DNA of 51,541 nucleotides from Alphaproteobacteria bacterium (GTDB taxonomy: Bacteria > Pseudomonadota > Alphaproteobacteria > Sphingomonadales > Emcibacteraceae): NCBI GenBank assembly GCA_013152755.1, contig JAADFR010000138.1:1-51541 (forward strand), in the 5' to 3' direction. The notes beneath the pieces were generated by a model. That model searched no databases and was not told where the DNA came from. It worked only from the letters and a program-made list of their open reading frames with translations. Shown piece after piece: positions 1,543 to 30,791 of the stretch. How positions within the stretch are numbered: position 1 is the first letter of the stretch; every line of letters starts with the position of its first letter. A program made the position numbers and the translations under genes.

Positions 1543-2448
1543 ATGGATATGGATGACGATTACCGCCCTTTTCATGCCAGCCCGTCAAAACCGCGCTTTA
1601 TGCCGCCGCCGGGGGCCGTGGACGCCCATTGCCATGTTTTCGGACCGTCTGCTAAATTCCCCTATGCGCCAAACCGTAAATACACGCCATGTGATGCACC
1701 AAAAGAAAGATTGTTCGCCCTGCGTGACTTCCTTGGTTTTGAGCGTAATGTGATTGTTCAGGCTTCCTGTCACGGGCGGGATAATGCGGCGCTCATTGAT
1801 GCCCTGAGAGATGCCGGAGGTCTGGCGCGGGGCGTGGCGGTAGTCGACCCAGACATAAGTGATGAAAAATTAAGAGAAATGCATGATGCCGGGGTTCGTG
1901 CTGTACGGTTTAACTTTGTCAAACGGCTGGTGGACAGCACACCGAAGCAAGTATTTTTAGAGGTCGCGGAAAGAATAGCCAAATTAGGCTGGCATATTGT
2001 GGTTTATTTTGAGGCCCCGGATTTTGAGGACTTAATCCCCTTTCTACAACGATTGCCCACAATTGTGGTGGTGGATCACATGGGCCGTCCGGATGTGAGC
2101 AAAGGCGTGGATCATGCGGACTTTCAACGGTTTGTCACATTCATGGCAGAAAACCAAAATATTTGGACAAAGGTAACCTGCCCGGAACGCCTGAGCCTTA
2201 CCGGCCCGCCTTACGGGGATGTTATCCCCTTTGCAAAGCTGTTGGTTGAGAGATTCCCGAACCGGGTTTTATGGGGCACCGACTGGCCGCACCCCAATAT
2301 GAAATCCCATACGCCCGATGATGGGTTGCTTGTCGATGTCATCCCGAGGATAGCCCCTGCTTTGGAACAGCAGCAGGCTCTTTTGGTGGATAATCCCATG
2401 CGTTTATACTGGCCTGAAAAGGAGACAGATGATGTCCTATCTAGATGA
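1543..2448 (+). CDS. ligI: 2-pyrone-4,6-dicarboxylate hydrolase (amidohydrolase family)
   Basis: LigI opens the lactone ring of 2-pyrone-4,6-dicarboxylate to give 4-oxalomesaconate, in the cytoplasm and without a metal. The sequence has the LigI signature: VDAHCHVFGP near residues 27-36 (the H-x-H loop), FNFVKR, VVDHMGRPD, and the C-terminal LWGTDWPHPN, which carries the catalytic Asp. The length of 301 residues is normal. I chose ATG 1543; an ATG at 1531 is also in frame, but the AAGGA at 1526-1530 would directly abut it. The gene overlaps the end of ligU only if 1531 is used, and its 3' end overlaps ligA. Confidence 0.92.
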   Translation: MDMDDDYRPFHASPSKPRFMPPPGAVDAHCHVFGPSAKFPYAPNRKYTPCDAPKERLFALRDFLGFERNVIVQASCHGRDNAALIDALRDAGGLARGVAVVDPDISDEKLREMHDAGVRAVRFNFVKRLVDSTPKQVFLEVAERIAKLGWHIVVYFEAPDFEDLIPFLQRLPTIVVVDHMGRPDVSKGVDHADFQRFVTFMAENQNIWTKVTCPERLSLTGPPYGDVIPFAKLLVERFPNRVLWGTDWPHPNMKSHTPDDGLLVDVIPRIAPALEQQQALLVDNPMRLYWPEKETDDVLSR

Positions 2449-2785
2449 TAAAACACCAATTCCGGGAACAATCCTGTTTGATGGCACCATGGCGCGTAAG
2501 GGCTATGGCCTCAATAAAATGTGTTATTCATTGAATGATCAGGCGGCGCGGGCGGAATTTGCCCGTGATGAAATGGCTTACTGCGAGAAATTCGGCCTGA
2601 CGACAGGACAAAAGAAAGCCATCAAAGACCGTGATGTTATCGGCTTGCTGGAACAGGGCGGCAGCATTTATTTTCTGGCTAAATTTACCGGCGGCCTGGG
2701 CCTGAATATGCAAGATATTGGGGCGCTACAAACCGGAATGAGCTTGGAAGAATTCAAAGAAAAACTTGTCAAGGCGGGAGAATAA
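2432..2785 (+). CDS. ligA: protocatechuate 4,5-dioxygenase alpha subunit
   Basis: This is the small subunit of the extradiol ring-cleavage dioxygenase that converts protocatechuate to 4-carboxy-2-hydroxymuconate semialdehyde. The 117-residue protein is all-helical LigA-like, with the family's IPGTILFDG start, YSLNDQAAR, and the GGSIYFLAKFTGGLGL segment that caps the active site of the beta subunit. ATG 2432 was preferred over ATG 2429 because the AAGGAG at 2419-2424 is then 7 bases away. It overlaps the end of ligI and is followed 2 bases later by ligB, so the two subunits are translated together. Confidence 0.95.
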   Translation: MSYLDDKTPIPGTILFDGTMARKGYGLNKMCYSLNDQAARAEFARDEMAYCEKFGLTTGQKKAIKDRDVIGLLEQGGSIYFLAKFTGGLGLNMQDIGALQTGMSLEEFKEKLVKAGE

Positions 2786-2787
2786 CC

Positions 2788-3627
2788 ATGGCTGAAATCA
2801 TCGGGGCCATCGGCTCATCCCATATCCCGGCCATCGGCGTCGCCATTGCCCGAAAAATACAGCAAACAGCCTATTGGAAGCCTTTTTTCGACGGCTTTCC
2901 GCCCATTCATGACTGGCTTGCCAAAGAGCAGCCGGATGTTGCCATCGTTTTTTATAATGATCATGGGCTGGAGTTTTTTCTGGATAAGAAACCAACTTTT
3001 GCTGTCGGGGCGGCGGCAGAATATATCAGCTATGATGAAGGCTGGGGCATTGATACCATTCCGCCTGTGATCGGTGATGAGGGTCTGTCATGGCATATCT
3101 GTAATGAGCTGGTGGAAGACGAATTTGATATTACCATCTGCCAGGAACTGGGTATTGATCACGGCCTGACCGTGCCCATGCAGTTGATGTGGCCGGGTAA
3201 TAACTACAGTCATATGAAGGTCATTCCCGTGGTGATCAATTGTGAGCAGCACCCCATGCCATCACCAAAGCGTTGTTTTGATCTGGGGCGGTCCATCGGC
3301 AAGGCAGTACTGTCCTATGAGAAAGACCTGAAAGTGGTTGTGTTGGGAACCGGGGGCCTGTCTCACCAGTTAGATGGACAGCGCGCCGGATTGATCAACA
3401 AAGAATTCGACATCATGTGCATGGACAAAATCGTTAATCAGCCGGAAGATCTGCTTGAATATTCCATTCGGGATCTGGTGGAAATTGCCGGGGCGCAGGG
3501 GGTTGAGCTTAACATGTGGCTTGCCATGCGCGGCGCGCTGACCGGAAAGGTCACCGAACTCCACCGTAATTACCATATCCCCATCTCCAATACCGGGGCC
3601 GGGACCATGTTGCTGTCAAATAAATAA
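2788..3627 (+). CDS. ligB: protocatechuate 4,5-dioxygenase beta (catalytic) subunit
   Basis: This is the catalytic, Fe(II)-containing subunit of protocatechuate 4,5-dioxygenase, 279 residues, the usual class III extradiol length. The start MAEIIGAIGSSHIPAIG contains the first iron-ligand His (SSHIP). The VFYNDHGLEFF segment gives the second His, and DHGLTVPMQLMWP and GTGGLSHQLDG provide further conserved active-site residues. It partners with LigA, 2 bases upstream. The product would be oxidised to the pyrone by LigC, which is not in this window. Confidence 0.95.
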   Translation: MAEIIGAIGSSHIPAIGVAIARKIQQTAYWKPFFDGFPPIHDWLAKEQPDVAIVFYNDHGLEFFLDKKPTFAVGAAAEYISYDEGWGIDTIPPVIGDEGLSWHICNELVEDEFDITICQELGIDHGLTVPMQLMWPGNNYSHMKVIPVVINCEQHPMPSPKRCFDLGRSIGKAVLSYEKDLKVVVLGTGGLSHQLDGQRAGLINKEFDIMCMDKIVNQPEDLLEYSIRDLVEIAGAQGVELNMWLAMRGALTGKVTELHRNYHIPISNTGAGTMLLSNK

Positions 3628-5890: not shown

Positions 5891-7120
<1,230 letters not shown>

Positions 7121-7204: not shown

Positions 7205-8311
7205 ATGAAAACACGCGCGGCGGTAGCTTTTAAAGCCGGAGAAGCTTTGAGTATTGAAACGGTTGACCTCGAGGGGCCAAAGGCCGGCGAGGTTCTGGTG
7301 GAGCTGAAAGCCACGGGCATTTGCCATACGGATGCCTTTACACTGTCCGGCGATGACCCGGAAGGTGCTTTCCCCGCCATTTTGGGCCATGAAGGTGCCG
7401 GGGTGGTTGTGGAAATTGGCGCGGGGGTAAAATCGCTGGCGGTGGGGGATCATGTAATCCCGCTTTATACGCCGGAATGCCGGGAATGTGATTATTGCCT
7501 GCATCCAAAAACCAACCTGTGCCAGTCTATTCGCACGACGCAGGGCGCAGGTCTGATGCCCGATGGCACCAGCCGTTTTTCCCTGAATGGCACCCCGATC
7601 CTGCATTATATGGGCTGTTCGACCTTTTCCAACCATACGGTTTTGCCGGAGATCGCGCTGGCGAAAATTCGTAAAGATGCGCCCTTTGACAAGGTCTGCT
7701 ATATCGGTTGCGGGGTCACCACCGGGGTCGGGGCGGTGGCGTTTGATGCCAAGGTGGAACCGGGCAGCAATGTGGTGGTTTTCGGGCTGGGCGGTATTGG
7801 CCTGAATGTCATACAGGGCGCGCGTATGGTCGGGGCCAATAAAATTATTGGCATCGACATTAACGAGAGCAAGGTAGACATGGCCCGAAAATTCGGCATG
7901 ACCGACTTTATCAATCCGCAAAAAACGCCGGACCTGATTGAAGCCATCATGGACCTGACAAATGGCGGGGCTGATTACAGTTTTGAATGTATTGGTAATG
8001 TGAATACCATGCGACAAGCGCTGGAATGTTGCCATAAGGGCTGGGGCGAAAGCATCATTATCGGGGTTGCCGGGGCGGGTCAGGAAATTTCCACCCGGCC
8101 CTTTCAGCTGGTCACCGGGCGGGTCTGGCGGGGCAGTGCCTTTGGCGGTGCGCGGGGCCGCACCGATGTGCCAAGGATCGTTGACTGGTATATGGACGGC
8201 AAGATCAATATTGATGACCTGATCACCCATACCATGCCATTGGAAGATATCAATAAGGCCTTTGATCTGATGCATTCCGGCGAAAGTATCCGCAGTGTCG
8301 TGCTCTATTGA
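7205..8311 (+). CDS. frmA: S-(hydroxymethyl)glutathione dehydrogenase / class III alcohol dehydrogenase
   Basis: This 368-residue zinc alcohol dehydrogenase oxidises S-hydroxymethylglutathione, the spontaneous adduct of formaldehyde and glutathione, to S-formylglutathione with NAD. The class III signature is complete: [17 protein letters not shown] and LGHEGAGVV around the catalytic zinc, a structural-zinc loop with four Cys ([16 protein letters not shown]), GCGVTTG, and GLGGIGL for NAD binding. It is followed directly by the S-formylglutathione hydrolase. Its place between pobA and the methyl-transfer cluster suggests it removes formaldehyde released during growth on methoxylated aromatics; that role is inferred. 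Confidence 0.95.
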
Positions 8312-8313
8312 CC

Positions 8314-9150
8314 ATGGAAAAAATATCGGAACATGGCTGTTATGGTGGAAAGCTCTCATATTTCAAACATACATCGGATGTGCTTAATTGTGACATGCGC
8401 TTTACGGTTTTTACGCCGCCGGGGGCCGTGGGCAAAAAACTGCCTGTAGTGACTTATCTTGCGGGTTTAACCTGTACGGAGGATAATTTTACCACCAAGG
8501 CCGGAGCATATAAAGCCGCAGCGGAATGCGGGCTTATACTAGTCGCGCCGGATACCTCTCCGCGCGGGGATCATGTGCCTGATGAGGAATCCTGGGATTT
8601 TGCCAAAGGGGCGGGTTTTTATGTGGATGCTACTGAAAGCCCCTGGGATAAGAACTATCAAATGGAAAGTTATATCAGCCGTGAGTTGAATGGCTTGATC
8701 GTTGATAATTTTCCGGTGGATGGGACACGTCAGGGTATTTTTGGTCATTCGATGGGTGGTCACGGGGCGTTAACTCTATATCTTAAACATCAGAATATAT
8801 ATAAATCTGTTTCTGCCTTTGCCCCTATTGTCGCGCCGAGCCAGTGCCCGTGGGGACATAAGGCTCTGGGCAACTATCTGGGACAGGACCCCGCGCTTTG
8901 GAGCGCACATGACGCCACGGAGCTAATGAAGAAATCGGGCAACGTAACATCACGCCCGGCGATATTGATCGATCAGGGGTTGGACGACCCGTTCCTTGAG
9001 GCGCAGCTAAAGCCTCATTTGTTTGAAGAAGCCTGCTCTGCCGTGGATCAAAAACTCATCCTGCGACGCCATGCAGGTTATGATCATGGATATTTTTTCA
9101 TCCAGACTTTTATGGAAGATCATATCCGTCATCATGGGAAAATATTATGA
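8314..9150 (+). CDS. frmB: S-formylglutathione hydrolase
   Basis: This serine esterase of the alpha/beta-hydrolase fold, about 278 residues, hydrolyses S-formylglutathione to formate and glutathione. The nucleophile motif GHSMGG is in GIFGHSMGGHGALTLYLKH. Early conserved segments are VTYLAGLTCTEDNF and APDTSPRG. The catalytic Asp and His are in LIDQGLDDPFL and GYDHGYFF. ATG 8314 is used; a TTG at 8308 overlapping the frmA stop is also possible. With frmA it forms the glutathione-dependent formaldehyde oxidation pathway; formate dehydrogenase is not in the window. Confidence 0.95.
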   Translation: MEKISEHGCYGGKLSYFKHTSDVLNCDMRFTVFTPPGAVGKKLPVVTYLAGLTCTEDNFTTKAGAYKAAAECGLILVAPDTSPRGDHVPDEESWDFAKGAGFYVDATESPWDKNYQMESYISRELNGLIVDNFPVDGTRQGIFGHSMGGHGALTLYLKHQNIYKSVSAFAPIVAPSQCPWGHKALGNYLGQDPALWSAHDATELMKKSGNVTSRPAILIDQGLDDPFLEAQLKPHLFEEACSAVDQKLILRRHAGYDHGYFFIQTFMEDHIRHHGKIL

Positions 9151-9360: not shown

Positions 9361-10326
9361 GTGGCAGGTGATAATATTGGTAAAAATTCACATATTAAAG
9401 TGCGGTTGACTGCTATTCATTATGGTGCCCGCGATATATATCTGTATGTATTCTCACCCCTTGACGGAGGCGTGCTGCCCGGAGCCGAGGCAGGGGCACA
9501 TATAAGTATTCTTCTTCCCAGTGGAATTGAACGTCAATATTCTTTAATTCATGCCGGGGAAAAAATGGCCACATATACGATTGGTGTAAAACTTGACGCC
9601 CAAAGTCGGGGCGGGTCTTCTTATATTCATGAGAATTTCAAGGTTGGCATGATTATGGAAATTACACCACCGATCAATCACTTCGAACTTAAAAAAGATG
9701 CGGCTCACACGGTGTTGATTGCGGGCGGAATTGGCATCACGCCAATATATTGCATGATGGAGCAGCTTGAAGACCTAAACACGACATGGGAATTGCATTA
9801 TTCGTGCCGTAGCCGCGAGGATGCCCTTTTTCTATCGCTCTTTAAGCATAATAAAAATGTACATTTATATTTCGATGATGAACGCAAAGGGGATTTCTTG
9901 CCGTTACAGGAGATTGTCAATTCGGCGCCTGCCGAAGCACATTTTTATTGTTGTGGCCCGGCACCAATGTTGAACGCCTTTGAAAAGACAGTGGTTAATT
10001 ATCCCAAACCCCAAGTTCATGTAGAATATTTTTCATCTAAAGAAGACGCCGCTTTGACCGGAGGATATGTTGTTGAACTCGCGGTTTCCGGAATTAAGGT
10101 GGATGTTCAACCGGGCATTTCTATTTTACATACACTTTTAGAGCATGGTGTTGAGGTGCCATTTTCATGCGAACAAGGGGCCTGTGGTATGTGTGAAGTA
10201 GACGTGGTTGAAGGCGAGCCTGATCATCGTGATTCTGTACTGACAGAAAAAGAAAGAACATCGAATGAAAGCATGATGATTTGCTGTTCCGGTTGCAAGG
10301 GGGACCGTTTGGTTCTTGATCTGTAA
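9361..10326 (+). CDS. FAD/FMN-2Fe-2S ferredoxin oxidoreductase (VanB/PaaE-type)
   Basis: A 321-residue electron-transfer protein with three domains in order. The flavin-binding barrel has RQYSLIHAG near residues 60-70. The NAD(P) domain has LIAGGIGITPIYCM and ends with YCCGPAPML. The C-terminal plant-type ferredoxin has CEQGACGMCEVDV and a later Cys for 2Fe-2S. This is the phthalate dioxygenase reductase/VanB layout. No terminal oxygenase is encoded nearby, so it may instead reduce the corrinoid reactivase or exchange electrons with the MetF-like protein of the next operon, with which it shares an upstream repeat. Start is GTG 9361 with AGGAG 9 bases upstream. VanB acting with a distant VanA remains possible. 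Confidence 0.82.
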   Translation: MAGDNIGKNSHIKVRLTAIHYGARDIYLYVFSPLDGGVLPGAEAGAHISILLPSGIERQYSLIHAGEKMATYTIGVKLDAQSRGGSSYIHENFKVGMIMEITPPINHFELKKDAAHTVLIAGGIGITPIYCMMEQLEDLNTTWELHYSCRSREDALFLSLFKHNKNVHLYFDDERKGDFLPLQEIVNSAPAEAHFYCCGPAPMLNAFEKTVVNYPKPQVHVEYFSSKEDAALTGGYVVELAVSGIKVDVQPGISILHTLLEHGVEVPFSCEQGACGMCEVDVVEGEPDHRDSVLTEKERTSNESMMICCSGCKGDRLVLDL

Positions 10327-10392: not shown

Positions 10393-10442
10393 TTGACATA
10401 ACAACACAAACCATGCATTATCCTATGAGTTGATATGACAAC
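10393..10442 (+). promoter_or_regulatory. sigma-70-like promoter with two dyad motifs before the corrinoid operon
   Basis: TTGACA (10393-10398), a 17-base spacer and CATTAT (10416-10421) form a plausible promoter. The 16-base element GAGTTGATATGACAAC at 10427-10442 covers the expected start of transcription. A related dyad TTG-ACATAA-CAA (10393-10404) overlaps the -35 box. Two TTG-N6-CAA dyads over a promoter suit repression by a MarR-type protein, such as the one at 20073-20600. Confidence 0.55.
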
Positions 10443-10518: not shown

Positions 10519-11991
10519 ATGACTTTAGTTCGACATTGGGTCATAAGGCATGCAGGAGCCATAGAACGTCTTTATCGTTCCTTTGAACGCGTGCTGGTTT
10601 TCTGCGGGCCCCTATTTAAGGCCGTTGGTTTTCATCGTTTGGAAAAACCGGTTGCCTTCATTGAATCCAGAGCAAAAAAATTCTTTTTCGGCTGCCATAT
10701 GTGCGGTGAATGCACATTGATGAGCACTGGTATGGCGTGTCCCATGACCTGTCGAAAAAGTCTTCGCAACGGGCCTTGTGGCGGCGTGCGGCCGGACGGA
10801 AGTTGTGAACTGGATAAAACAATAAAATGTACGTGGGTAAATGCCTGGGAGGGCGCATCAAGGATGGGGTCTGGCGCAGCCATTGGCCGCCAGCAAAGGC
10901 CCGTACATTATAATAAATTCGGACGATCATCCTGGTTGCGGGTGGCTCAAAAAGAACTATCCGCAGTGAGCGACTTCTCTAATAAAGGACAGGCCAAGAA
11001 GAAAAGTTGCAAACAGGAACACGCCAGAGGAAGGGGTTTACTGGAAGAAAAACTCCGGCAGGGCGAATTTGTTGTTACTGTTGAGTTGTCCCCGCCCGAT
11101 TCATCTAACCCAGAGGATATACTTTCCCGCGCCCGCCTGTTTGGCAATATGGTTGATGCCATAAATATTACCGATGGGTCCAATGCGAATTGTCATCTTT
11201 CCAGCCTTGCGGCGGCGGTCCTTTTAAAACAAGAGGGTTATACACCAATATTGCAGGCAACTTGCAGAGACCGCAATCGTATTGCGCTACAGGGGGATAT
11301 TTTGGGGGCAGCAGCTTTAGGCATTGAAAACCTCTTGTGCCTTACCGGTGACGGCGTGGAAAATGGTGATCATCCGGGTGCCAAGCCTGTGTTTGACCTG
11401 GATAGCACATCATTATTGGGGGCGGTTCGGGGAATGTGCGACGAAGGCCGTTTCCTGTCGGGCCGGTATTTGAAGTCGGCACCAAATATATTTTTAGGGG
11501 CCGCAGCAAACCCCTTTGCCCCGCCTTTCGATATTCGGGCTGTTCACATGGCAAAAAAAATAGAAGCCGGCGCTAATTTTATACAAACACAATATTGCTT
11601 CGATATTAATGCTCTTAGAGATTTCATGCGTAAAGTCAGGGCATTAGGCCTTCATAATCGGGCATATATCCTCGTTGGTGTCGGGCCGTTGGTTTCCCTG
11701 AAAGCAGCCAACTGGATGAATGAAAATGTGCCCGGCGTTAACATCCCGAAAAATATTATCAAGAGAATGCAAACCACCGAAAACCCAAAGCTGGAAGGCA
11801 AACAGATATGCATCGAACTGATCCGCGAAATTATCAAGATTAAAGGCGTTGCAGGCGTACATATCATGGCTCATCGCTGCGAAGAAATAGTGCCAGAAAT
11901 CCTTGAAGAGTCCGGCTTGCGGGGGCGGCATGAAAGAAAACTGAATATGGCAGCCACTGTCACCCTTCCGGTGAAACAGGGCAGGAAATGA
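10519..11991 (+). CDS. MetV-MetF fusion: methylenetetrahydrofolate reductase with N-terminal Cys-rich domain
   Basis: A 490-residue protein. Residues about 50-115 hold a Cys-rich module (CHMCGECTLMSTGMACP, CRKSLRNGPCGG, SCELD, KCTW) matching the MetV/methylenetetrahydrofolate reductase C-terminal family, which in acetogens is a separate MetV subunit. Residues about 175-480 are the MetF TIM barrel (VVTVELSPPDSSNPED, NITDGSNANCH, LCLTGDG, ANFIQTQYCFDI). It interconverts methyl-THF and methylene-THF. In an aerobe degrading methyl donors it would run in the oxidative direction. It is the first gene of the methyl-transfer operon, 33 bases before the corrinoid protein. The fusion order, MetV before MetF, is notable. 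The electron partner is unknown; the upstream reductase is a candidate. Confidence 0.85.
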   Translation: MTLVRHWVIRHAGAIERLYRSFERVLVFCGPLFKAVGFHRLEKPVAFIESRAKKFFFGCHMCGECTLMSTGMACPMTCRKSLRNGPCGGVRPDGSCELDKTIKCTWVNAWEGASRMGSGAAIGRQQRPVHYNKFGRSSWLRVAQKELSAVSDFSNKGQAKKKSCKQEHARGRGLLEEKLRQGEFVVTVELSPPDSSNPEDILSRARLFGNMVDAINITDGSNANCHLSSLAAAVLLKQEGYTPILQATCRDRNRIALQGDILGAAALGIENLLCLTGDGVENGDHPGAKPVFDLDSTSLLGAVRGMCDEGRFLSGRYLKSAPNIFLGAAANPFAPPFDIRAVHMAKKIEAGANFIQTQYCFDINALRDFMRKVRALGLHNRAYILVGVGPLVSLKAANWMNENVPGVNIPKNIIKRMQTTENPKLEGKQICIELIREIIKIKGVAGVHIMAHRCEEIVPEILEESGLRGRHERKLNMAATVTLPVKQGRK

Positions 11992-12024
11992 TGATTATAA
12001 CATCTTTAGTAATCGGAGAGAATT

Positions 12025-12678
12025 ATGGGAAATAAAGCTGACGAATTAGTCAAATCTATAGCAGAGATGGACGAGGAAAAAGCCATTGATCTGGCAAACC
12101 AAATGCTTGCAGAAGGTGTAGATCCTCTGGAAGTGCTGCGCTTGTGCCGTGTTGCGATGGATATTGTCGGAGAACGGTTTGAAAAACAGGAATATTTCCT
12201 CCCGGAGTTGATGATGGCAGGCGATATGCTGGAACAAATCGGCGCAATCGTCAAACCTCTTTTGATGGATCAGGCTGGCGGCGAAGAGCCGGAAACCCTT
12301 GGTACGATTGTTCTTGGTACGGTTCACGGTGATTTACATGATATTGGCAAAAACATTGTTACTTTCATGCTGGAATTAAATGGATTCAAGGTCATTGATC
12401 TGGGTATTGATGTGCCGATCGAGAAATTCATTGATGCCATCGAAGAAAATCAGCCCCAAGTGGTCGCCCTTAGCGGATTTCTCACCCTTGCTTTTGATTC
12501 CATGAAGGAAACTGTTGAAGCCATTGCAGAAGCCGGTTGGCGGGATAAAGTAAAAATTATGATTGGTGGCGGCCAGATAGATGAGCAGGTAACAAACTAT
12601 ACCGGCGCAGATGCCTTTGGCAAAAATGCCATGGAAGCTGTATCTTTATGTAACGAATGGATCGGCGGTGCGGCATGA
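12025..12678 (+). CDS. corrinoid (B12-binding) methyl-carrier protein
   Basis: This 217-residue protein is of the MtaC/MtvC type. It has an N-terminal helical cap (residues about 1-85) and a Rossmann-like cobalamin domain. The lower-axial-ligand motif D-x-H-x-x-G is DLHDIG at 103-108 with His105. Ser150 in ALSGFLT and GGG at 181-183 line the nucleotide tail as in MetH. It receives a methyl group on Co(I) from the substrate methyltransferase and passes it on to tetrahydrofolate. It lies between the MetF fusion and the UroD-type methyltransferase and overlaps the latter by 4 bases (ATGA), typical of three-component methyltransferase operons. Confidence 0.93.
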   Translation: MGNKADELVKSIAEMDEEKAIDLANQMLAEGVDPLEVLRLCRVAMDIVGERFEKQEYFLPELMMAGDMLEQIGAIVKPLLMDQAGGEEPETLGTIVLGTVHGDLHDIGKNIVTFMLELNGFKVIDLGIDVPIEKFIDAIEENQPQVVALSGFLTLAFDSMKETVEAIAEAGWRDKVKIMIGGGQIDEQVTNYTGADAFGKNAMEAVSLCNEWIGGAA

Positions 12679-13934
12679 CGTCTGATGTGGATTATGACGC
12701 AAAAGAGCTTTATGCCGAACGCCATAAGCGTGTGCAGGATGCCATTTCACTGAAAGAAACCGACAGGGTGCCATCAGTATTTTACTCTATGTTTTGGTAC
12801 GCTAAATACGGCGGTGTCACCTGCCGGGATATTATGTATGATTATGACAAGCTATCGGCGATAGTCAGGAAAGTTCTCAATGATTTCCAACCGGACAGTT
12901 TTTCATTACCGCACCCGATAATTGCCTTGGGGCCTTCTATGGAGGCAATGGACTATAAACAGCTGGAATGGCCGGGCCATGGTACCGACCCCAATGTCTC
13001 CTACCAGTTCCTTGACAAGGAATATATGTCGGCGAAAGAATATGAAGAATATATATTCGATCCGACAGGTTTTTATCTTACCAAATATTTGCCGCGTATC
13101 TCAGGTGTTTGTGAAGGGTTCGGCAAGCTGCCATCATTCCCGGGGCATTACTATATTCAATCTGTGTTAGGGGCGCGTTATTTTTCCAATCCTGCCGTTG
13201 TGGAATCCTTTCAGGCGATGGCAAGAGCCGGTGATGAAATGCAGGCGATGTTGAGCAAAGCGATGGCTTTTGCCCGTGAGATGGGAGATGCAGGTTTCCC
13301 TCTTGCCCAAGGAGCCAGCGCAATTTCCCCCTTTGATTATTTCGCCGATTACTTCCGGGGATCAAAAGGGGTGATGATGGATATGTATCGCAAGGCGGAC
13401 CTCTTTCTGGAAGCAATGGATAAAGCCGCCGTTTTCATTGTCCGCAGCGCCGTTGCGCAATCTGAACGCCAGCCCTGTAAAACAGTTTTTATCCCTGTCC
13501 ATTGGGCTTTTGACGGGTTGATGTCCGAGGACCATTTTAAAACTTTTTTCTGGCCGCCGTTCAAAAAAGTAATTCTGGGTTTGATTGATGCAGGGTTAAA
13601 CCCATTGCTCCTGTGGGAAGGTGATTGCACTTCCCGAATGGAGTTGATCGGCGATATTCCAGCAGGAAAAGCTATCTACTGGTTTGAAAGAGGCGACCTT
13701 TTCAAGGCCAAGGAGATTCTCGGGAATGTCACTTGTCTGCGCGGCAATGTACCGCCCTCGCTATTGAATACGGGAACGCCAGAAGAAGTAGATGAATATT
13801 GCAAGACATTAATTCAAGTAGTTGGCAAAGGCGGTGGCTTTATCCTTGACGGTGGTATTGGCGTGCCGGATGAAGCCTTAATAGAAAATGTCAAGGCAAT
13901 GTTCGACGCAACCCATAAGTATGGGAACGGATGA
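12675..13934 (+). CDS. UroD-family substrate:corrinoid methyltransferase
   Basis: This 419-residue protein belongs to the uroporphyrinogen decarboxylase superfamily, which includes MtaA, MtbA, CmuA/CmuC and O-demethylase methyltransferases. It sits directly after the corrinoid protein (ATGA overlap), which is why a methyltransferase rather than heme function is called. Recognisable parts are RVQDAISLKETDRVPS at the N-terminus, IPVHWAFDGLMS (His276), LLLWEGDC (Glu315, Asp317, Cys318) and VTCLRGNVP (Cys354). The canonical H-x-C...C zinc set of MtaA is not seen as such; Glu315/Cys318/Cys354 may replace it. It should transfer a methyl group from the growth substrate to Co(I). The substrate is not known; a methoxylated aromatic acid is inferred from the neighbours. 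Confidence 0.82.
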   Translation: MTSDVDYDAKELYAERHKRVQDAISLKETDRVPSVFYSMFWYAKYGGVTCRDIMYDYDKLSAIVRKVLNDFQPDSFSLPHPIIALGPSMEAMDYKQLEWPGHGTDPNVSYQFLDKEYMSAKEYEEYIFDPTGFYLTKYLPRISGVCEGFGKLPSFPGHYYIQSVLGARYFSNPAVVESFQAMARAGDEMQAMLSKAMAFAREMGDAGFPLAQGASAISPFDYFADYFRGSKGVMMDMYRKADLFLEAMDKAAVFIVRSAVAQSERQPCKTVFIPVHWAFDGLMSEDHFKTFFWPPFKKVILGLIDAGLNPLLLWEGDCTSRMELIGDIPAGKAIYWFERGDLFKAKEILGNVTCLRGNVPPSLLNTGTPEEVDEYCKTLIQVVGKGGGFILDGGIGVPDEALIENVKAMFDATHKYGNG

Positions 13935-13940
13935 CCAGCC

Positions 13941-14642
13941 ATGAATGTTTCCATCCCCCGAATTTCTGTGAAGTTGGAAGATATGACGAAAGTTCCATCG
14001 CTTCAAAGGCCTGGAAATATTGGGAACCGCATTGCTACGTTGATTCCGGATCTTCTGGAAATGGTGAAGAGAAAGGGAATGATTTCCCCTTCTTTTATCT
14101 ATCGGGTAAAGCGCGTAGAAGCCCTTGTGGGGGCAGAAATATTTTTGGATGGTGGCCTTAACCTGCACGCTCCATTAATCGTTGAAAAGATACCAACGGC
14201 AAAAGAACTTGCATTTGCAGTCTGTACTATCGGTGATGGTCTTGAGCAGAATGTCAACGAACTATTTGCTAAAAAGAGGGCCTTGGAAGCGTTCATCCTA
14301 AATGAGATCGGTAATATTGCCGTAAGTAAAGTTGCCTTAAAGGCCAGAACGAAAATCAGAAAGGAAGCCGCTTGCCGTAATTTAGAGGCAAGCAGTTCCT
14401 TAAGCCCGGGCGTATTGGGGTTTGAGGTCGAACAGCAGCAAATGCTGTGCAAAACGGCATCAGCCGATAAATTAGGTGTAGAAATGAGAACCGGGACGAT
14501 GATGCACCCGGATAAGTCTCTGTCATTTGTGACGGGTCTTGGGAAACATATGCCCCGTTGGACGCAAGCAGATGAATGCCGGTCTTGCCGCGCCCGTGAC
14601 CGTTGCCACAATCGGCTTACGTCCAGCGGGGAGATGCTGTGA
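13941..14642 (+). CDS. stand-alone MetH-type activation-domain protein
   Basis: A 233-residue protein resembling the vitamin B12-dependent methionine synthase activation domain as found in free-standing form in corrinoid methyltransferase gene clusters. Visible features are an AFAVCTIGDGLEQ segment near the middle, LSPGVLGFEVEQQQ, and MMHPDKSLSFVTGLG, which corresponds to the family's M-x-P-x-K-S-x-S core. A Cys-rich tail (ECRSCRARDRC) resembles an iron-sulfur or zinc knuckle. It starts 6 bases after the methyltransferase stop and overlaps the next gene by one base. In MetH this domain helps AdoMet-dependent reductive methylation of Co(II); a part in keeping the corrinoid active is inferred. 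Confidence 0.72.
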   Translation: MNVSIPRISVKLEDMTKVPSLQRPGNIGNRIATLIPDLLEMVKRKGMISPSFIYRVKRVEALVGAEIFLDGGLNLHAPLIVEKIPTAKELAFAVCTIGDGLEQNVNELFAKKRALEAFILNEIGNIAVSKVALKARTKIRKEAACRNLEASSSLSPGVLGFEVEQQQMLCKTASADKLGVEMRTGTMMHPDKSLSFVTGLGKHMPRWTQADECRSCRARDRCHNRLTSSGEML

Positions 14643-16522
14643 TGAAAGAAAATACGGTCCCTGTCCAAATTAAGGTTCAAGACTGTGATAAAATTATAGA
14701 ATGTTATCCGGGTGAGAATTTCAATGAAGCGGCACAGCGTAAGGGGTTAGCCATCGCAACCACCTGTGGTCGTGAGGGTACATGTAAATCATGCGCTGTA
14801 CGTATCGTTTCAGGTAAAGTTCCGGCGGCAACGCCTGACGAAAAAAAACTCTTCGATGATATGCAGCTAAGCAGAGGGTGGCGGCGTTCCTGTAAATTTG
14901 TTCCAATCACTGATTGTACCGTGCATATACCGCGCCGGTCCCTATTGATTAAGTCACGGCATTTGATTGTCATTAAAAAACGTGACCAGCTTCCGCCGGA
15001 TCCGCTGGTGCGCAGCAAGCTTATTAAACTTGAACCGTCAGAAATAGAGGGTGATGCTGATTGGGAACGTCTTTTGCAGGCCCTTAACAGAGATAAAACG
15101 GCCCCCCCGATTGAGCGGATTGACCTCGGGCTATTGAGAGACCTCAGCCGCTCTTTGCGCAGATGGAATTGGGATATCAAGGTCTATATGCGGGGGGATG
15201 AGGTCATAGGTATTGGACCTTGCAATAGCCGTGCTTATGGCATTGCTGTTGATCTGGGAACCACTAATATTGTTGGTTTTCTAGTCAATCTTGAAACTGG
15301 TGAAGTGCTATCAGCTAATAGTACCGGGAACCCGCAAGTATCTTTTGGGGGTGACATTATGACCCGGCTGGCCCGGGCGGCGCGGGACTGTGATGTCAGG
15401 AAGCTCATGCAAAAAACGGTCGTTGATGAAATCAATAATATTGTGCAGGAACTTTGCGCCAATGAGGTACATGCTGATGATATAGTTGCGGAAATGGTGA
15501 TTGCGGGTAATACCGTGATGCATCACCTTCTTATCGGCCTTGATATTGAACAATTAGGTAAAGCACCATTTGTGCCCGCAACTTGTCAGGATCTGGACAT
15601 AAAGGCACGGGATATTGGCCTCACATCAGCGCCTTACGCCACAATTCATTTTCCCGGAATTATTGCAGGGTTTGTCGGAAGCGACCATGTGATGGCACTT
15701 TTAACCTCCCTATCCTCTCTTCGCAAGGGGCTGTCGATTATCGTGGATATAGGCACCAACACAGAAATTTCTATTGTGGACGGGGATCGGATTATTTCGG
15801 TTTCATGTCCCTCGGGCCCTGCTCTGGAAGGTGGTGAAATCAGCTTTGGCATGTCCGCGACTGAAGGGGCTATTGAGGCCGTTCAAATTGATGGAAACGC
15901 GTTAACACTGAAAACCATACAAAATGGATCACCTATAGGTCTGTGCGGTTCTGGGGTTTTGGATATGGTTGCTGAATTATACCGGAATGGCGTGATTAAT
16001 CATCGAGGCCGATTAAATATCACTAACCCCAAAGTCAGATCCCGTGATGACAGGCTTGAATTTATAATTATTGAAGAATTAGACGGCATAGAAGGGCAGA
16101 TCAGCTTTTCTCAAGATGATATTCGGGCCGTGCAACTGGCAAAAGCGGCGATCCGCGCAGGTATTGACATGCTGCTCAAAGAAATCGGGCAAAAAGAAAC
16201 AGCGTTAGAGCGTGTCATCGTCGCGGGGGCCTTTGGGAATTTCCTCAATATTAAAAATGCCATCGCTGTTGGGCTACTGCCCTCTATCCCTCTGGATCGT
16301 TTTGAACAAGTGGGAAATGCCGCCGGTAAAGGGGCGCGTTTGGCTCTGGTTTCCAAAGAACAAAGACTGCAGGCACGTACATTAGCAAAGACCACATCCT
16401 ATTTGGAACTTTCCGGCCAGAAGGCATTTATGACAGCTTTCATTGACCGGATAAACTTCGATTACAGGAAGCAAAATCAAATAGACGGATTGAAACAGAG
16501 CGACGGAATGGAAACAGTATGA
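14642..16522 (+). CDS. 2Fe-2S / ASKHA corrinoid reductive activator (RACo-like)
   Basis: A 626-residue ATP-dependent activator that reduces inactive Co(II) corrinoid back to Co(I). Residues 1-95 form a plant-type 2Fe-2S domain with Cys42, Cys48, Cys51 and Cys84 (CGREGTCKSC ... RRSC). A linker follows to about residue 190. The ASKHA ATPase part begins at YGIAVDLGTTNIVGF and has NPQVSFGGDIMTRL, IVDIGTNTEI, SGPALEGG and VIVAGAFGNFLNIKNA. Start ATG 14642 shares a base with the preceding TGA (TGATG), indicating coupled translation. Acetogens and methanogens use such proteins in methyltransferase systems. It needs a low-potential electron donor, perhaps the reductase at 9361. Confidence 0.92.
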   Translation: MKENTVPVQIKVQDCDKIIECYPGENFNEAAQRKGLAIATTCGREGTCKSCAVRIVSGKVPAATPDEKKLFDDMQLSRGWRRSCKFVPITDCTVHIPRRSLLIKSRHLIVIKKRDQLPPDPLVRSKLIKLEPSEIEGDADWERLLQALNRDKTAPPIERIDLGLLRDLSRSLRRWNWDIKVYMRGDEVIGIGPCNSRAYGIAVDLGTTNIVGFLVNLETGEVLSANSTGNPQVSFGGDIMTRLARAARDCDVRKLMQKTVVDEINNIVQELCANEVHADDIVAEMVIAGNTVMHHLLIGLDIEQLGKAPFVPATCQDLDIKARDIGLTSAPYATIHFPGIIAGFVGSDHVMALLTSLSSLRKGLSIIVDIGTNTEISIVDGDRIISVSCPSGPALEGGEISFGMSATEGAIEAVQIDGNALTLKTIQNGSPIGLCGSGVLDMVAELYRNGVINHRGRLNITNPKVRSRDDRLEFIIIEELDGIEGQISFSQDDIRAVQLAKAAIRAGIDMLLKEIGQKETALERVIVAGAFGNFLNIKNAIAVGLLPSIPLDRFEQVGNAAGKGARLALVSKEQRLQARTLAKTTSYLELSGQKAFMTAFIDRINFDYRKQNQIDGLKQSDGMETV

Positions 16523-17403
16523 CTTTTTCAAATCTTACCATTATCGGGGAACGGATTAACCCCGGTTTCAAAAGTACCGAAACTTTATTTGCCAATGATG
16601 ATTTTAAAGGGATACAAGAATTGGCCATCAGGCAAGCGAATGCCGGGGCAGCTTATCTAAATGTCAATTGTGGGCGGCGATCCAAGGATGATCCGGATTT
16701 CCTAAAAGAGGTCATACTGTCTATTCAGGCGGTTGTAGACATTCCTCTATCATTTGATTTTCCCAATGTTGAGGTGCAGGAACTCTGCTTGAAGACATAT
16801 GATATTGAAAAAGCCAAAGGGCGAAAACCAATCGTTAATTCCATAGCGGAAACACGTTGGGAGATGTTGGAATTAGCGAATATCATGCCCTTTAAAGTCA
16901 TCCTCATGGCTTCGGAAAGAATGGAAGATGGCCGGGGCAAGCCAAATAAATTAGCTTGCGAAGTTTTTGAAACGGCTCAGCGAATGGTGAATACCGTCAT
17001 GGAAAGTGAATATGATTTTAACAAAGAGGATTTGATAGTTGATGTGTCCGTAAGCGCCCTTGCAGCGGATACGGAGGGGCTAACCAAAATGGCGATTGAA
17101 GGCATTCGTTTAATTGGGGAAGACCCGGATATGCAGGGGGTGCATATTATGGGGGGGCTTTCCAATATTGGCCAGCAATTACCGGCTAAAGCGGCCGACG
17201 GTTCGCGTTTAAAACTTCAGCTTGAAAACGCATTCTTGACGATGGCAAACCCTCTTGGTTTTGATTTTCTGCTTGGAACCCCCTGGAAAGAGTATGGCCC
17301 TTTGCCCGAAGATAACTATGTGTACAAGATTTTTACCGAAGTGCTGGGTCTCTCGGGAATAGAAGCCCTGAGATGTATCCGAAAATTCTACAAGGCAGGG
17401 TGA
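16519..17403 (+). CDS. methyltetrahydrofolate:corrinoid methyltransferase (pterin-binding, AcsE/MtvA-like)
   Basis: A 294-residue dihydropteroate-synthase-like TIM barrel. The N-terminus TIIGERINPGFKST and the following GAAYLNVNCG strand (the D/N-x-N pterin site) match MeTr proteins. Further segments are PLSFDFPN, KPIVNSIA, LIVDVSVSAL and HIMGGLSNIGQQLP. It moves the methyl group from the methyl-corrinoid protein to tetrahydrofolate, giving methyl-THF for the MetF fusion encoded five genes upstream. It overlaps the activator gene by 4 bases. The closest analogues are MtvA and CmuB-like second methyltransferases. Confidence 0.9.
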   Translation: MTFSNLTIIGERINPGFKSTETLFANDDFKGIQELAIRQANAGAAYLNVNCGRRSKDDPDFLKEVILSIQAVVDIPLSFDFPNVEVQELCLKTYDIEKAKGRKPIVNSIAETRWEMLELANIMPFKVILMASERMEDGRGKPNKLACEVFETAQRMVNTVMESEYDFNKEDLIVDVSVSALAADTEGLTKMAIEGIRLIGEDPDMQGVHIMGGLSNIGQQLPAKAADGSRLKLQLENAFLTMANPLGFDFLLGTPWKEYGPLPEDNYVYKIFTEVLGLSGIEALRCIRKFYKAG

Positions 17404-17405
17404 AA

Positions 17406-18611
17406 ATGAGCCTGCGTTTAATCAAAACAGCGGCCTACTTTGATGGTGTTTCAATTCACCGGAACGGGCCATATCTAATTGAAATTCATCGCGGGTATAT
17501 TGCGGCTATTCTGAATGGAGAAGATATACGGCTCCGATTGAATGTAGAGGAGAATGACGTTTTGGAAACGTCCTTTCTTATGCCGGGATTGGTTGATGCT
17601 CATGTTCACGTTTTTCTTGATGGTGCGGAATTGAATTTTAAGGCCCGTTCCGATTATCAGAAATCTGATTTTGAAAATATGATGGCCACTGCTCAGTCTA
17701 ACATATCCAAAACCGTTAAGGCGGGAATTACCCTATTCCGTGATGCGGGCGATAAATTCGGGGTGAACCACGCCACTCGGAATGAATTGTTGAATGACAA
17801 TGACATTCCTCTAACGATCAGGTCCCCTGGCTTCGGTATAAAGAAACCAAAGCGCTATGGGGGGTTCATTGCCCGGGATTTAGTCGATATTAGGCACGCG
17901 GATACAACCGTCGGGGAAATAGCCCGCGACAGTAACGACCTCAAAATTATCCTGACCGGCATTATTGATTTCAAGGCTGGTGAGGTCAAAGGGGACCCAC
18001 AGTTCACTCTAGAGGAACTGTCTGCGCTTGTAGATATTTCCCATGCCAAGGGGATGCAGACCTTCGCCCATTGTAGCGGTTTGGCCGGACTTGAGCTTGC
18101 GGTCAAGGCGCGTGTGGATTCTATTGAACATGGCTTTTTTATGAATAAAGAAATTCTGGAGAAAATGGCGGAACATCAAATTGCCTGGGTTCCGACTTTT
18201 TCTCCTGTGTATTTCCAGTGGAAACATCCAGAATATGCAGGCTGGGATGAAAGTACGGTTGGAAATTTGCGAAAAATCATCGACTCCCATTATCAGCATG
18301 TCAAAATTGCCCAGGCGTTAGGGGTTCTTCTGGTTGCCGGGTCAGATGCGGGCAGTTACGGGGTTGACCACGGCAGGGCGCTGATTGACGAGCTTCTTCA
18401 CTTTCTCGCAGCAGGGCTAAGTCTGGAAGAGACATTAACCTCTGCAACGTCTCGCCCTCGTATGCTTTGGTCACTGCCGTCAGCTAATATTGAAGTGGGT
18501 AATCAGATTGATGTCGTAGGCTATAAATCATGTCCATTGAAGAAAGCAAAAAATTTCTATCTTCCTTCTTTTACAGTCAAAGCAGATACATTCACAGCCC
18601 ACAATATCTAA
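17406..18611 (+). CDS. imidazolonepropionase-like metal-dependent amidohydrolase
   Basis: A 401-residue cytosolic amidohydrolase of the HutI-like subgroup. It has LMPGLVDAHVHVFLDG with His66-x-His68, FAHCSGLAG, DSIEHGFFMNK and VAGSDAGSYGVDHGRAL carrying the later metal-binding His and Asp residues. It begins 2 bases after the methyl-THF methyltransferase stop (ATG 17406 rather than the overlapping ATG 17373). Its substrate is unknown. As I recall, the aerobic chloromethane clusters also carry a hutI-like gene next to corrinoid methyltransferase genes, which suggests a conserved but unexplained link with methyl or folate metabolism. Hydrolysis of an amide- or ester-linked growth substrate is another option. 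Confidence 0.75.
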   Translation: MSLRLIKTAAYFDGVSIHRNGPYLIEIHRGYIAAILNGEDIRLRLNVEENDVLETSFLMPGLVDAHVHVFLDGAELNFKARSDYQKSDFENMMATAQSNISKTVKAGITLFRDAGDKFGVNHATRNELLNDNDIPLTIRSPGFGIKKPKRYGGFIARDLVDIRHADTTVGEIARDSNDLKIILTGIIDFKAGEVKGDPQFTLEELSALVDISHAKGMQTFAHCSGLAGLELAVKARVDSIEHGFFMNKEILEKMAEHQIAWVPTFSPVYFQWKHPEYAGWDESTVGNLRKIIDSHYQHVKIAQALGVLLVAGSDAGSYGVDHGRALIDELLHFLAAGLSLEETLTSATSRPRMLWSLPSANIEVGNQIDVVGYKSCPLKKAKNFYLPSFTVKADTFTAHNI

Positions 18612-18647
18612 ACACTCAAGGGATATAAACCACTATCAGGAGGCATT

Positions 18648-20057
18648 ATGAGTAAAGACAGGCAGGTAGAGACCCGGATTAAATGGCTGGAAACACTGGA
18701 AAAATTCAGATTGGACTTCGATGGCCCCGGATCGGAAAAATATTGGTCGCCGGAACTGGACACCATTTCACGCGACCAGTTACGGGTTGTCCAGAATGAA
18801 AAAATCAAGGCGGTAGCACCGTTCTTATATGAAAACAGCCCCTTTTATCGGCGACGCTTTGACCGTCTTGGACTGGCACCGACTGATATATCTTCGGTGG
18901 ACGACCTTGCCAAATGGCCGGTCGTGGATAAATCTGAGATGATGGAAGATGCCGCCGCTAACCCGCCTTACGGAACCTATAGCACCATGGATTCAGAATT
19001 GTGGCAGCAAAGGGGTTGGATGATGTTTTCTTCTTCCGGCACCACAGGTGTCCCGCGTGTTTGCCGTTATTCGCAAATAGACCGGGAGTATTGGTCATGG
19101 GCCAATGCACGTGCTTTATACGCCATGGGTATGCGATCTAATGATACCATGTTTATTTGTTCAGGTTATGGTCCCCATGTTTTTGCCTGGGGCGTTCAAT
19201 ATGCTCTGGAGAAAATGGGCATGGGCATGATTCCCGGTGGCGGTATGAACAGTCGTGCCCGGGCAGATATAATTGATCGTTTCAAACCTACGGTCTTGAC
19301 TTGTACGCCGTCTTACGCCCTGCATTTAGGACGTGTAATGCAGGGAAAAGGGCTAAATCCTGCCGCAAGCTCAATTCGCCTTGTATTTGTTGGCGGCGAA
19401 CCTGCCAGTGGCATACCAAATACACGCAAACGAATAGAAGAGCTCTGGGGGGCGAAGCTTGTGGAATTTTATGGCTGCACGGAGGCCTCCCCCCATAGTG
19501 GCGGTTATTCCTGTACATCCTCAGCAGAAGACGAGACATCAATCACCACTCATCTGATGGAAGATATTCAGGTCTGGGAACTAATCGACCCCTATAACAA
19601 TCAAACAGTGCGTTCCGGGGAACGGGGGCTGACCGTCTGTACAAATTTAAATTCTGAAAGTTCCCCGCAGCTTCGCTTTCTCGTTGGAGATTATACAGTT
19701 TTTAACCATGATATATGCTCCTGCGGGCGCAGTCATGTGCGCGCAGTAGGGGCATTCTCGGGGCGGGTGGATGATCTCATAAATCTTCGCGGCATAAAGA
19801 TGTATCCAACCCAGATCGAAGAAGCTGTCCGCGCTGTGGAGGGTATAGGGGATGAATATGAGGTGGTGATTATCACGGATGACGCGGGCCTTGACCTTAT
19901 GAATATCAGGGTGGAACATGCCGATGCAGAGGTGGCAGATAAGGTCGCATTGGAAATTCAAACCCGGTGTGAAGTTCGGGTCAATGTTGAAGTATTACCA
20001 CTTGGTGTCTTGGCCAAAACAGAGTTTAAAGCAAATCGAATTAAGGATTTAAGATAA
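18648..20057 (+). CDS. PaaK-like acyl/aryl-CoA ligase (AMP-forming)
   Basis: A 469-residue member of the phenylacetate-CoA ligase branch of the ANL superfamily. The AMP-binding P-loop is MFSSSGTTGVPRVCRYS (residues about 126-142). LVFVGGEPAS, FYGCTEASPHSGG, FSGRVDDLINLRGIKMYP and the C-terminal KTEFKANRI follow. It would activate a carboxylic acid to its CoA thioester with ATP. It follows the amidohydrolase by 36 bases with an AGGAGG ribosome site, and ends the methyl-transfer operon. Activation of an aromatic acid before or after demethylation is inferred; phenylacetate itself is not implied, since no paa genes are present. Confidence 0.8.
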   Translation: MSKDRQVETRIKWLETLEKFRLDFDGPGSEKYWSPELDTISRDQLRVVQNEKIKAVAPFLYENSPFYRRRFDRLGLAPTDISSVDDLAKWPVVDKSEMMEDAAANPPYGTYSTMDSELWQQRGWMMFSSSGTTGVPRVCRYSQIDREYWSWANARALYAMGMRSNDTMFICSGYGPHVFAWGVQYALEKMGMGMIPGGGMNSRARADIIDRFKPTVLTCTPSYALHLGRVMQGKGLNPAASSIRLVFVGGEPASGIPNTRKRIEELWGAKLVEFYGCTEASPHSGGYSCTSSAEDETSITTHLMEDIQVWELIDPYNNQTVRSGERGLTVCTNLNSESSPQLRFLVGDYTVFNHDICSCGRSHVRAVGAFSGRVDDLINLRGIKMYPTQIEEAVRAVEGIGDEYEVVIITDDAGLDLMNIRVEHADAEVADKVALEIQTRCEVRVNVEVLPLGVLAKTEFKANRIKDLR

Positions 20058-20066
20058 GATTACGGA

Positions 20067-20096
20067 CATTTCTCATGCATTTTTATATGAGAAATG
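20067..20096. terminator. hairpin between convergent ligase and MarR genes
   Basis: A 10-base stem, CATTTCTCAT against ATGAGAAATG, encloses a 10-base loop between and just inside the convergent gene ends. No long T-run follows, so it is only a candidate bidirectional terminator. Confidence 0.4.
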
Positions 20097-20600
20097 ATCT
20101 ATATTATCCTTCATTATTCTCATGACTTTCAAAAGCGTTTCAAGGTCCTCAGGATCAATACCCTTGATTAGCTTACTCTCCCTTTTAAGGGCGACGACAA
20201 TAAGCCTGTCATGGAGTTCGTATCCTTTGGCATTCAACCACCATATTTTCCGGCGGGTATCAGCTTTGGAAGCTTCAAAATCCAGATGGCCAAGGTCATG
20301 GAGACGTTTTAACGCACGGCTTGTGGAGGCTTTATCGAGGGAAAGTATCTGACAGATGGTGGATGCTGGAATGCGGGGTTCGATGGCCAACATCGATATG
20401 ACCCGCCATTCAACAATGCCGATTCCAAAAGTATCAATATAATATTGGGATGATCCACGTGACAGGGCGTTGTTTAAGACTAAAAGGTAAAATGGAATAT
20501 AAGATGATATATTAATAATGAGACGCCCATCCCGCGTTTTAGTAGGTTTGGAAATACGTCCTTCCGGGCATATAGGGCTTGTTGATGTCGAATCTTCCAT
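20073..20600 (-). CDS. MarR-family transcriptional regulator
   Basis: A 175-residue winged-helix regulator. After a poorly conserved N-terminal tail, GIGIVEWRVISMLAIEPRIPASTICQILSLDKASTSRALKRLHDLGHL gives the helix-turn-helix (residues about 73-120), and the wing follows in SKADTRRKIWWLNAKGYEL. MarR proteins usually respond to aromatic acids or their CoA esters. It is convergent with the acyl-CoA ligase at the end of the corrinoid operon, so it is the best local candidate to bind the TTG-N6-CAA dyads at 9288 and 10393-10442. The 135 bases upstream are AT-rich and hold no gene. Confidence 0.85.
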   Translation of the reverse strand: MEDSTSTSPICPEGRISKPTKTRDGRLIINISSYIPFYLLVLNNALSRGSSQYYIDTFGIGIVEWRVISMLAIEPRIPASTICQILSLDKASTSRALKRLHDLGHLDFEASKADTRRKIWWLNAKGYELHDRLIVVALKRESKLIKGIDPEDLETLLKVMRIMKDNIDHFSYKNA

Positions 20601-27345: not shown

Positions 27346-27427
27346 TAACCTTATGCGGCAGCCTTTTTACTTTGACAGAAAGGCTGCCGCCCATAATACT
27401 GTCTCTCTTTACCAAACGGGAACAATC

Positions 27428-28972: not shown

Positions 28973-28986
28973 GAACAGGAAACTAG

Positions 28987-30459: not shown

Positions 30460-30460
30460 C

Positions 30461-30778: not shown

Positions 30779-30791
30779 ACAGGACAAAATA

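Follow-up and report, generated by a model that had tools for sequence, protein, structure and literature searches.

Can an oxygen-respiring alphaproteobacterium demethylate methoxylated aromatic acids by corrinoid chemistry? This question is raised by an operon at positions 10519–20057 of a 51,541-nucleotide stretch of DNA (contig JAADFR010000138.1 of assembly GCA_013152755.1; the whole stretch is called the window below), which is contig 138 of a 2.9-Mb metagenome-assembled genome (MAG) of the Emcibacteraceae that is 95.5% complete. The original prediction, made from the letters of the window, described a complete corrinoid/tetrahydrofolate (THF) methyl-transfer system of the O-demethylase type. 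It is near certain, judging from gene content, that the operon encodes a corrinoid methyl-transfer system. We favour, with moderate confidence, the reading that it is an O-demethylase cassette of the corrinoid-dependent kind, carried by a host that respires oxygen. A second MAG of the same genus (L004/L015) carries a 97% identical cassette, and therefore the cassette is not an assembly accident.

Eight intact open reading frames (ORFs) lie consecutively on the plus strand, where they had been placed before (Table 1). Their order was confirmed by the ORFs together with Pfam and NCBIfam matches: a MetV-MetF fusion (MetVF), a corrinoid protein (CP), a UroD-family methyltransferase I (MTI), an activation-like protein (ACT), a RACo-type activase, a methyltransferase II (MTII), an amidohydrolase and a CoA ligase. 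Because the core genes overlap (ATGA overlaps at ACT/RACo and RACo/MTII, and a CP/MTI overlap) or stand a few bases apart, the region is very probably a single operon. MTI, CP, MTII, activase and MetVF all reside within it, and the claim of a complete system stands.

Several of these proteins carry recognizable motifs. CP is a separate two-domain protein with a DLHDIG motif (DxHxxG type) at residue 103, and MetVF has a cysteine cluster (residues 59, 62, 65, 74, 78, 87, 96 and 104), its proposed role being the oxidation of methyl-THF to methylene-THF. RACo has an N-terminal 2Fe-2S domain (Fer2) with C-x5-C-x2-C at residue 55; its ORF was listed as 639 amino acids from a TTG at 14603, and the ATG at 14642 is the likely start. 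A Pfam scan of the 233-residue ACT gave no match, and a six-member family profile matches the Thermotoga MetH activation domain (1j6r, E 8e-11). The PaaK-like ligase scores 237 bits against 6hdw (2-hydroxyisobutyryl-CoA synthetase) and 217 bits against 4r1l (phenylacetate-CoA ligase). Ethers of the methyl tert-butyl ether type, brought up as substrates by the first of these matches, were dropped because PaaK enzymes score nearly equally.

To which branch of the UroD superfamily does MTI belong? In phmmer comparisons with solved structures, MTI scores 125 bits against CdmB, 22.7 bits against UroD and 18 bits against MtbA. On sequence grounds, MTI is assigned to the O-demethylase/CdmB side of the superfamily and not to the coenzyme M (CoM) methyltransferases or true UroD. 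The Pfam scan gives URO-D only, with no MttB-family (PF06253) MTI in the operon. A fold search with an AlphaFold2 model (pLDDT 92.9) returned UroD/MtbA folds (Z 26), which carry no information on substrate; CdmB was not among these fold matches, though it is present among the PDB sequence matches. At the putative counterpart of the zinc site of vanillate/veratrole MTIs, Glu321 and Glu344 match acetogen glutamates in the alignment, and the acetogen histidine falls at Thr359 beside the conserved Cys360. Zinc is absent from some O-demethylases (PMC13222342).

The best solved relative of MTI is CdmB (9rui, E 3.6e-35, 25% identity), and genes for formaldehyde/THF one-carbon (C1) oxidation adjoin the operon. 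Both observations would suit a methyl halide dehalogenase, in which the methyl donor of MTI would be chloromethane or bromomethane, as for CdmB or CmuA. We regard this as very improbable. CdmB, a long branch, groups with Sporomusa, Acidobacteria and Actinomycetota proteins (96/84), outside the clade of the window MTI and its sister groups. It is no closer to MTI than are the Sporomusa and Alkalibacter MTIs (27–28% identity), and the test for CdmB orthology was negative. In addition, MTI and CP are fused in CmuA but separate in the window operon, and MTI is flanked by aromatic genes in two lineages.

In trees that contained no OdmB, VdmB, MtvB or MtoB references, the window MTI falls in a clade of nine (support 100/100), whose members come from alpha-, beta- and gammaproteobacteria and one Acidimicrobiaceae genome; the neighbouring groups are from Deltaproteobacteria, Spirochaetes, Nitrospira and Chloroflexi. 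Homologues are rare. Only 3 of 298 genomes of the order carry one, all within the host's genus; 385 genomes of the class yielded no full-length MTI outside that genus; and 398 genomes of the phylum added one more. Scanning GTDB genomes yielded 38 loci, and a plasmid search with MTI gave no match. This rarity and the mixture of phyla suggest that the clade spread by horizontal transfer. Heme-copper oxidases occur in all eight of the clade's genomes that were tested (G849, introduced below, was outside this test).

Two arrangements were noted among the other loci. Myxococcota/deltaproteobacterial MAGs (L032, L034 and L037) have two to three MTI paralogues of differing clades around one CP, perhaps reflecting distinct methyl donors that share a single CP. 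A sister-clade MTI (L026, 5269–13515) stands between a molybdopterin oxidoreductase, which comes after it, and what looks like an ABC transporter cassette of the branched-chain type immediately before it; of this cassette, the substrate-binding protein was confirmed and the remainder judged from gene lengths.

The original prediction proposed a methoxylated aromatic acid as the methyl donor. In the window, the cassette lies 3' of protocatechuate 4,5-cleavage genes and pobA; pobA, ligAB and the formaldehyde oxidation genes had been correctly named and match NCBIfam-type models above cut-off. A second association is found in a gammaproteobacterial groundwater MAG (G678; L016, 4032–11230), whose MTI is the closest outside the host's genus (58% identical). 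This MTI is the final gene of a 3-hydroxybenzoate/benzoyl-CoA operon (3-hydroxybenzoate/benzoate-CoA ligase-like, had, oah, dch, thiolase, MTI) and starts 11 bp downstream of the thiolase gene. The CP-ACT-RACo-MTII genes of G678 lie on a separate contig, and its genome has heme-copper oxidases. As gene context, the G678 operon supports an aromatic substrate independently of the window, and a meta-methoxyl group (vanillate, veratrate or 3-methoxybenzoate) may fit both settings.

The host genome was also searched, family by family, for other enzymes with this task. A GcvT-domain search for LigM/DesA returned only GcvT, a SoxA-like fragment and YgfZ-like hits (assigned by lengths and orthologues). 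Canonical VanA was not found, an absence that is not absolute in a MAG of this completeness; the single VanA_C Rieske protein (56 bits) is encoded on a different contig, next to an aldehyde dehydrogenase gene and with no reductase adjacent. No other aromatic O-demethylase that could supply LigAB was found, P450 demethylases being outside the search. Without LigM and canonical VanA, the host would need a different O-demethylase for methoxylated acids to reach LigAB. We consider a methoxylated aromatic the probable donor, by a modest margin over even chances.

Some observations weigh against this donor. No aromatic genes (ligAB/pobA) adjoin the cassette, in the stretches seen, in Emcibacter sp. 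OFTM146 of the host's own genus (G012 = L018), in NORP106, in G849 or in the Acidimicrobiaceae MAG. The evidence on substrate comes from gene neighbours only, and the formaldehyde genes are compatible with any C1 donor. In a 2026 study, CdmB, a near relative of the O-demethylases, acts on chloromethane and rejects methoxyaromatics (PMC13222342), and therefore family membership does not fix the methyl donor. Finally, simple demethylation of anisate or vanillate needs neither an amidohydrolase nor, in the window, a CoA ligase. The proposed donor keeps the linkage to pobA and ligAB, the G678 orthologue and the lack of LigM and canonical VanA on its side, but the linkage is not conserved and the simple anisate/vanillate scheme does not account for the amidohydrolase.

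A search for the same gene set in other genomes, suggested earlier as a check among alphaproteobacteria, bears on this last point. G849, a 100% complete genome (perhaps that of an isolate) from another alphaproteobacterial family, has MetVF-CP-MTI-ACT-RACo-MTII-amidohydrolase, an order identical to that of the window, so that two families share the seven-gene order at ~50% identity; linkage to ligAB was not seen in G012, NORP106 or G849. NORP106 has CP-MTI-ACT-RACo-MTII-amidohydrolase-MetVF, and G012 has the same cassette genes split over two contigs. The G006 contig with the cassette breaks off at MetVF. In the Acidimicrobiaceae MAG, the genes are divided between a contig with CP-MTI and another, beginning within an MTI gene, with MetVF-MTII-amidohydrolase-ACT-RACo. 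Identities of the components to those of the window are 40–68%, except for the fast-evolving ACT (23–32%). The amidohydrolase is present in 6 of the 9 genomes searched (G000, G006, G012, G849, NORP106 and Acidimicrobiaceae), with one copy in each, always directly after MTII, and its metal ligands are intact in all three aligned sequences. Among the nine, it was not found in the gammaproteobacterial relative and two betaproteobacterial relatives, which keep MTI and the rest. HutF beside one betaproteobacterial cassette (L017) was rejected as an equivalent, being an ordinary formimidoylglutamate deiminase. A LigB-like gene 3 kb from another (L020) was likewise rejected as support, since it lies on the opposite strand and scores 146 bits against a 290-bit cut-off.

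The constant position of the amidohydrolase, the retention of the exact seven-gene order across two families and the lack of ligAB/pobA near the other cassettes are what one would expect if a different methyl compound were demethylated. Such a compound, for example of the amide, lactam or hydantoin type with an O-, N- or S-methyl group, would be prepared or finished by the amidohydrolase, and the protocatechuate neighbours would be incidental to the genus. This explanation strikes us as rather unlikely, because the relatives that lack the amidohydrolase keep MTI, in the gammaproteobacterium within a benzoyl-CoA operon. We know of no UroD-type MTI that acts on N-methyl compounds. A broader proposal, which we hold as doubtful though slightly less so, is that the seven-gene cassette is a mobile new catabolic system of oxygen-respiring Proteobacteria and Actinobacteria. 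The substrate in this proposal would be a methylated compound so far unrecognized as a target of corrinoid enzymes, on which the amidohydrolase and the corrinoid UroD-type MTI would act in series in an oxic or micro-oxic setting.

Two side observations concern these genomes. In G849, an indolepyruvate:ferredoxin oxidoreductase-like gene (POR, DUF6537) lies 5' of the cassette with an ilvD-like gene in between (L095, 847–6385), and might supply RACo with low-potential electrons. G012 has a second corrinoid cluster (L074, 6849–12678), where RACo and MTII are joined by an MttB-like protein (assigned by eye) and MetF and MetV are separate genes. Within this one genome, the fused MetVF of the cassette is therefore distinct.

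How would Co(I) chemistry fit the respiration of the host? The aa3-type oxidase indicates that the host respires oxygen, as had been proposed. However, it also has a cbb3 oxidase operon and, at L083, a gene for a 441-amino-acid COX1-family protein beside one for a NorQ/CbbQ-type AAA protein, a pair that reads, by sequence, as norB-norQ, so the corrinoid chemistry may run at low oxygen. In a variant compatible with aromatic O-demethylation, the operon would serve only under oxygen scarcity, alongside nitric oxide (NO) or N-oxide respiration, and not during fully aerobic growth. The cbb3 and norB/norQ-like genes (nitrate and nitrite reductases were outside the search) agree with it, as do the oxygen sensitivity of Co(I) and the tie of the gammaproteobacterial MTI to an anaerobic ring pathway. 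So does a NosP NO sensor (381 bits, under the 450-bit cut-off) with a NahK/ErcS-type hybrid kinase at 20737–23263, directly past the MarR gene that follows the operon. In contrast, PobA and LigAB of the same cluster require oxygen, and MtgBCD functions in Ruegeria grown aerobically (PMC12478193). We entertain this variant tentatively, as somewhat less probable than its opposite. RACo is present as one copy in the host genome and is dedicated to this operon. MetH is present and CobN was not found in the family search, and therefore cobalamin is probably imported; an Rfam scan of the window gave nothing, with no cobalamin riboswitch found.

By homology to the Odm, Mtv and Mto systems (PMC8630106), a mechanism for aromatic O-demethylation can be drawn. 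RACo and ATP would reduce CP to Co(I), with electrons from an NAD(P)H:ferredoxin-type donor, perhaps the reductase encoded upstream, and ACT may help this reductive activation. MTI would transfer the methyl group of a methoxylated aromatic acid to Co(I) of CP, and MTII would pass it to THF. MetVF would convert methyl-THF to methylene-THF for C1 oxidation or biosynthesis, much as MetF2 is proposed to oxidise methyl-THF with MtgBCD in Ruegeria (PMC12478193), and FrmA/FghA would deal with the formaldehyde that is released. Demethylation would leave a phenol, protocatechuate or 4-hydroxybenzoate, as the substrate of LigAB or PobA. The likeliest donors would be vanillate or veratrate (3-methoxy), followed by 4-methoxybenzoate, and the amidohydrolase may cleave an amide or ester conjugate to free the acid.

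The genes 5' of the operon are, in order, ligK, oxalomesaconate tautomerase, a LigI-like hydrolase, ligA, ligB, a PcaK-like major facilitator superfamily transporter, AraC (HpaA-like), pobA, frmA and fghA. Just upstream of the operon is a reductase of the phthalate-dioxygenase-reductase (PDR)/VanB family that the original prediction had not listed; it is a possible electron supplier, and none was found in the related cassettes. Next to the Acidimicrobiaceae cassette is a MarR gene with no detectable similarity to that of the window beyond family level. Farther along, a quinohemoprotein amine dehydrogenase cluster (27353–31892; alpha subunit, radical SAM maturase and beta subunit all above NCBIfam cut-offs) adjoins TonB receptors and a StyD-like aldehyde dehydrogenase (23310–24815), and represents a periplasmic amine-oxidation pathway near the demethylase operon.

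Table 1. Coordinates of the operon genes and flanking features in the window.
Feature	Position	Strand	Details
ligA + ligB, protocatechuate 4,5-dioxygenase	2429..3627	+	PRK13378 + PRK13364, above cut-off
pobA, 4-hydroxybenzoate 3-monooxygenase	5894..7120	+	TIGR02360, 650 bits, above cut-off
frmA + fghA, glutathione-dependent formaldehyde oxidation	7205..9150	+	TIGR02818, 642.7 bits; TIGR02821, 412 bits; above cut-off
PDR/VanB-type NAD(P)H:2Fe-2S reductase	9361..10326	+	2pia, 172 bits
Promoter-like TTGACA-17-CATTAT, upstream of MetVF	10393..10421	+	consensus match only
MetV-MetF fusion	10519..11991	+	490 aa; PF12225 = DUF5981 (41-128), PF02219 MTHFR (175-466)
Corrinoid protein (CP)	12025..12678	+	217 aa; PF02310 B12-binding, PF02607 B12-binding_2; TIGR02370-like, 170 bits
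UroD-family MTI, substrate:corrinoid methyltransferase	12657..13934	+	425 aa; PF01208 URO-D
MetH-activation-domain-like protein (ACT)	13941..14642	+	233 aa; C-terminal CxxCx5C (alignment)
RACo-type ATP-dependent reductive activase	14642..16522	+	PF14574 (265 bits), PF17651, PF17650, PF00111; AcsV-like, 399 bits
Methylcorrinoid:THF MTII	16519..17403	+	294 aa; PF00809 Pterin_bind; PRK07535, 114.7 bits; PDB 4o0q/2yci
Amidohydrolase, prolidase/carboxypeptidase/ochratoxinase group	17406..18611	+	412 aa; PF01979; PDB 3be7/2qs8/4c5y; ATG 17406 probable start
PaaK-like acyl-CoA ligase	18648..20057	+	469 aa; AMP-binding PF00501/PF14535
MarR-family regulator	20073..20600	-	PF12802; convergent with operon; kept in G006

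Is such a route new? Aerobes are known to demethylate chloromethane (CmuAB) and glycine betaine (MtgBCD, PMC12478193) by corrinoid chemistry. With these precedents for other donors, the claim that a corrinoid route is unusual in an aerobe is weaker than stated. In the open-licence literature, we found neither an account of oxygen-respiring bacteria with a UroD-type O-demethylase cassette nor one of an amidohydrolase as part of such a system, which is weak evidence of absence in both cases. The operon suggests a demethylation route that had not been described in oxygen-respiring bacteria. If this reading is right, aromatic O-demethylation in these organisms would gain an oxygen-independent route in which the methyl group is kept on THF and not burnt with O2 and NADH, and turnover of lignin-type methoxyl groups at oxic-anoxic boundaries would be linked to cobalamin supply. 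How Co(I) chemistry survives near oxygen would then be a further question. The operon would offer a compact cassette for oxygenase-free demethylation of lignin aromatics, suited to heterologous testing.

The operon can be compared with several known systems. It shares with the acetogen O-demethylases (OdmABCD/VdmB of Acetobacterium dehalogenans and MtvABC of Moorella thermoacetica) a separate UroD-family MTI, a two-domain CP, a pterin-binding MTII, a 2Fe-2S/ASKHA activase and transfer of the methyl group to THF. It differs from them in its oxygen-respiring host, in the fused MetV-MetF by which methyl-THF is presumably oxidised, and in the extra activation-like protein and amidohydrolase; its MTI is ~25–28% identical to the acetogen MTIs compared. 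The mlp clusters (PMC10418091) were set aside because their methyltransferases belong to the CoM-methyltransferase branch. Mto (MtoABCD of Methermicoccus and Archaeoglobus) has the same MTI-CP-MTII-activase set and serves methoxylated aromatics (PMC8630106, PMC8359953), but is archaeal and anaerobic and delivers the methyl group to tetrahydromethanopterin. Cdm (CdmBCA of Acetobacterium dehalogenans) has the same types of parts and the closest solved MTI, whereas it is haloalkane-specific and anaerobic and sits on another branch of the tree. The glycine betaine demethylase MtgBCD, from Ruegeria pomeroyi and other aerobic marine bacteria, shares CP, MTII, reductive activation, a MetF paralogue and an aerobic host (PMC12478193), but its MTI is of the MttB family and its donor a quaternary amine. 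VanAB and LigM/DesA, none of which is clearly present in the host, would perform the same supposed task of providing protocatechuate for LigAB, but do so without a corrinoid, by a Rieske oxygenase or by direct methyl transfer to THF.

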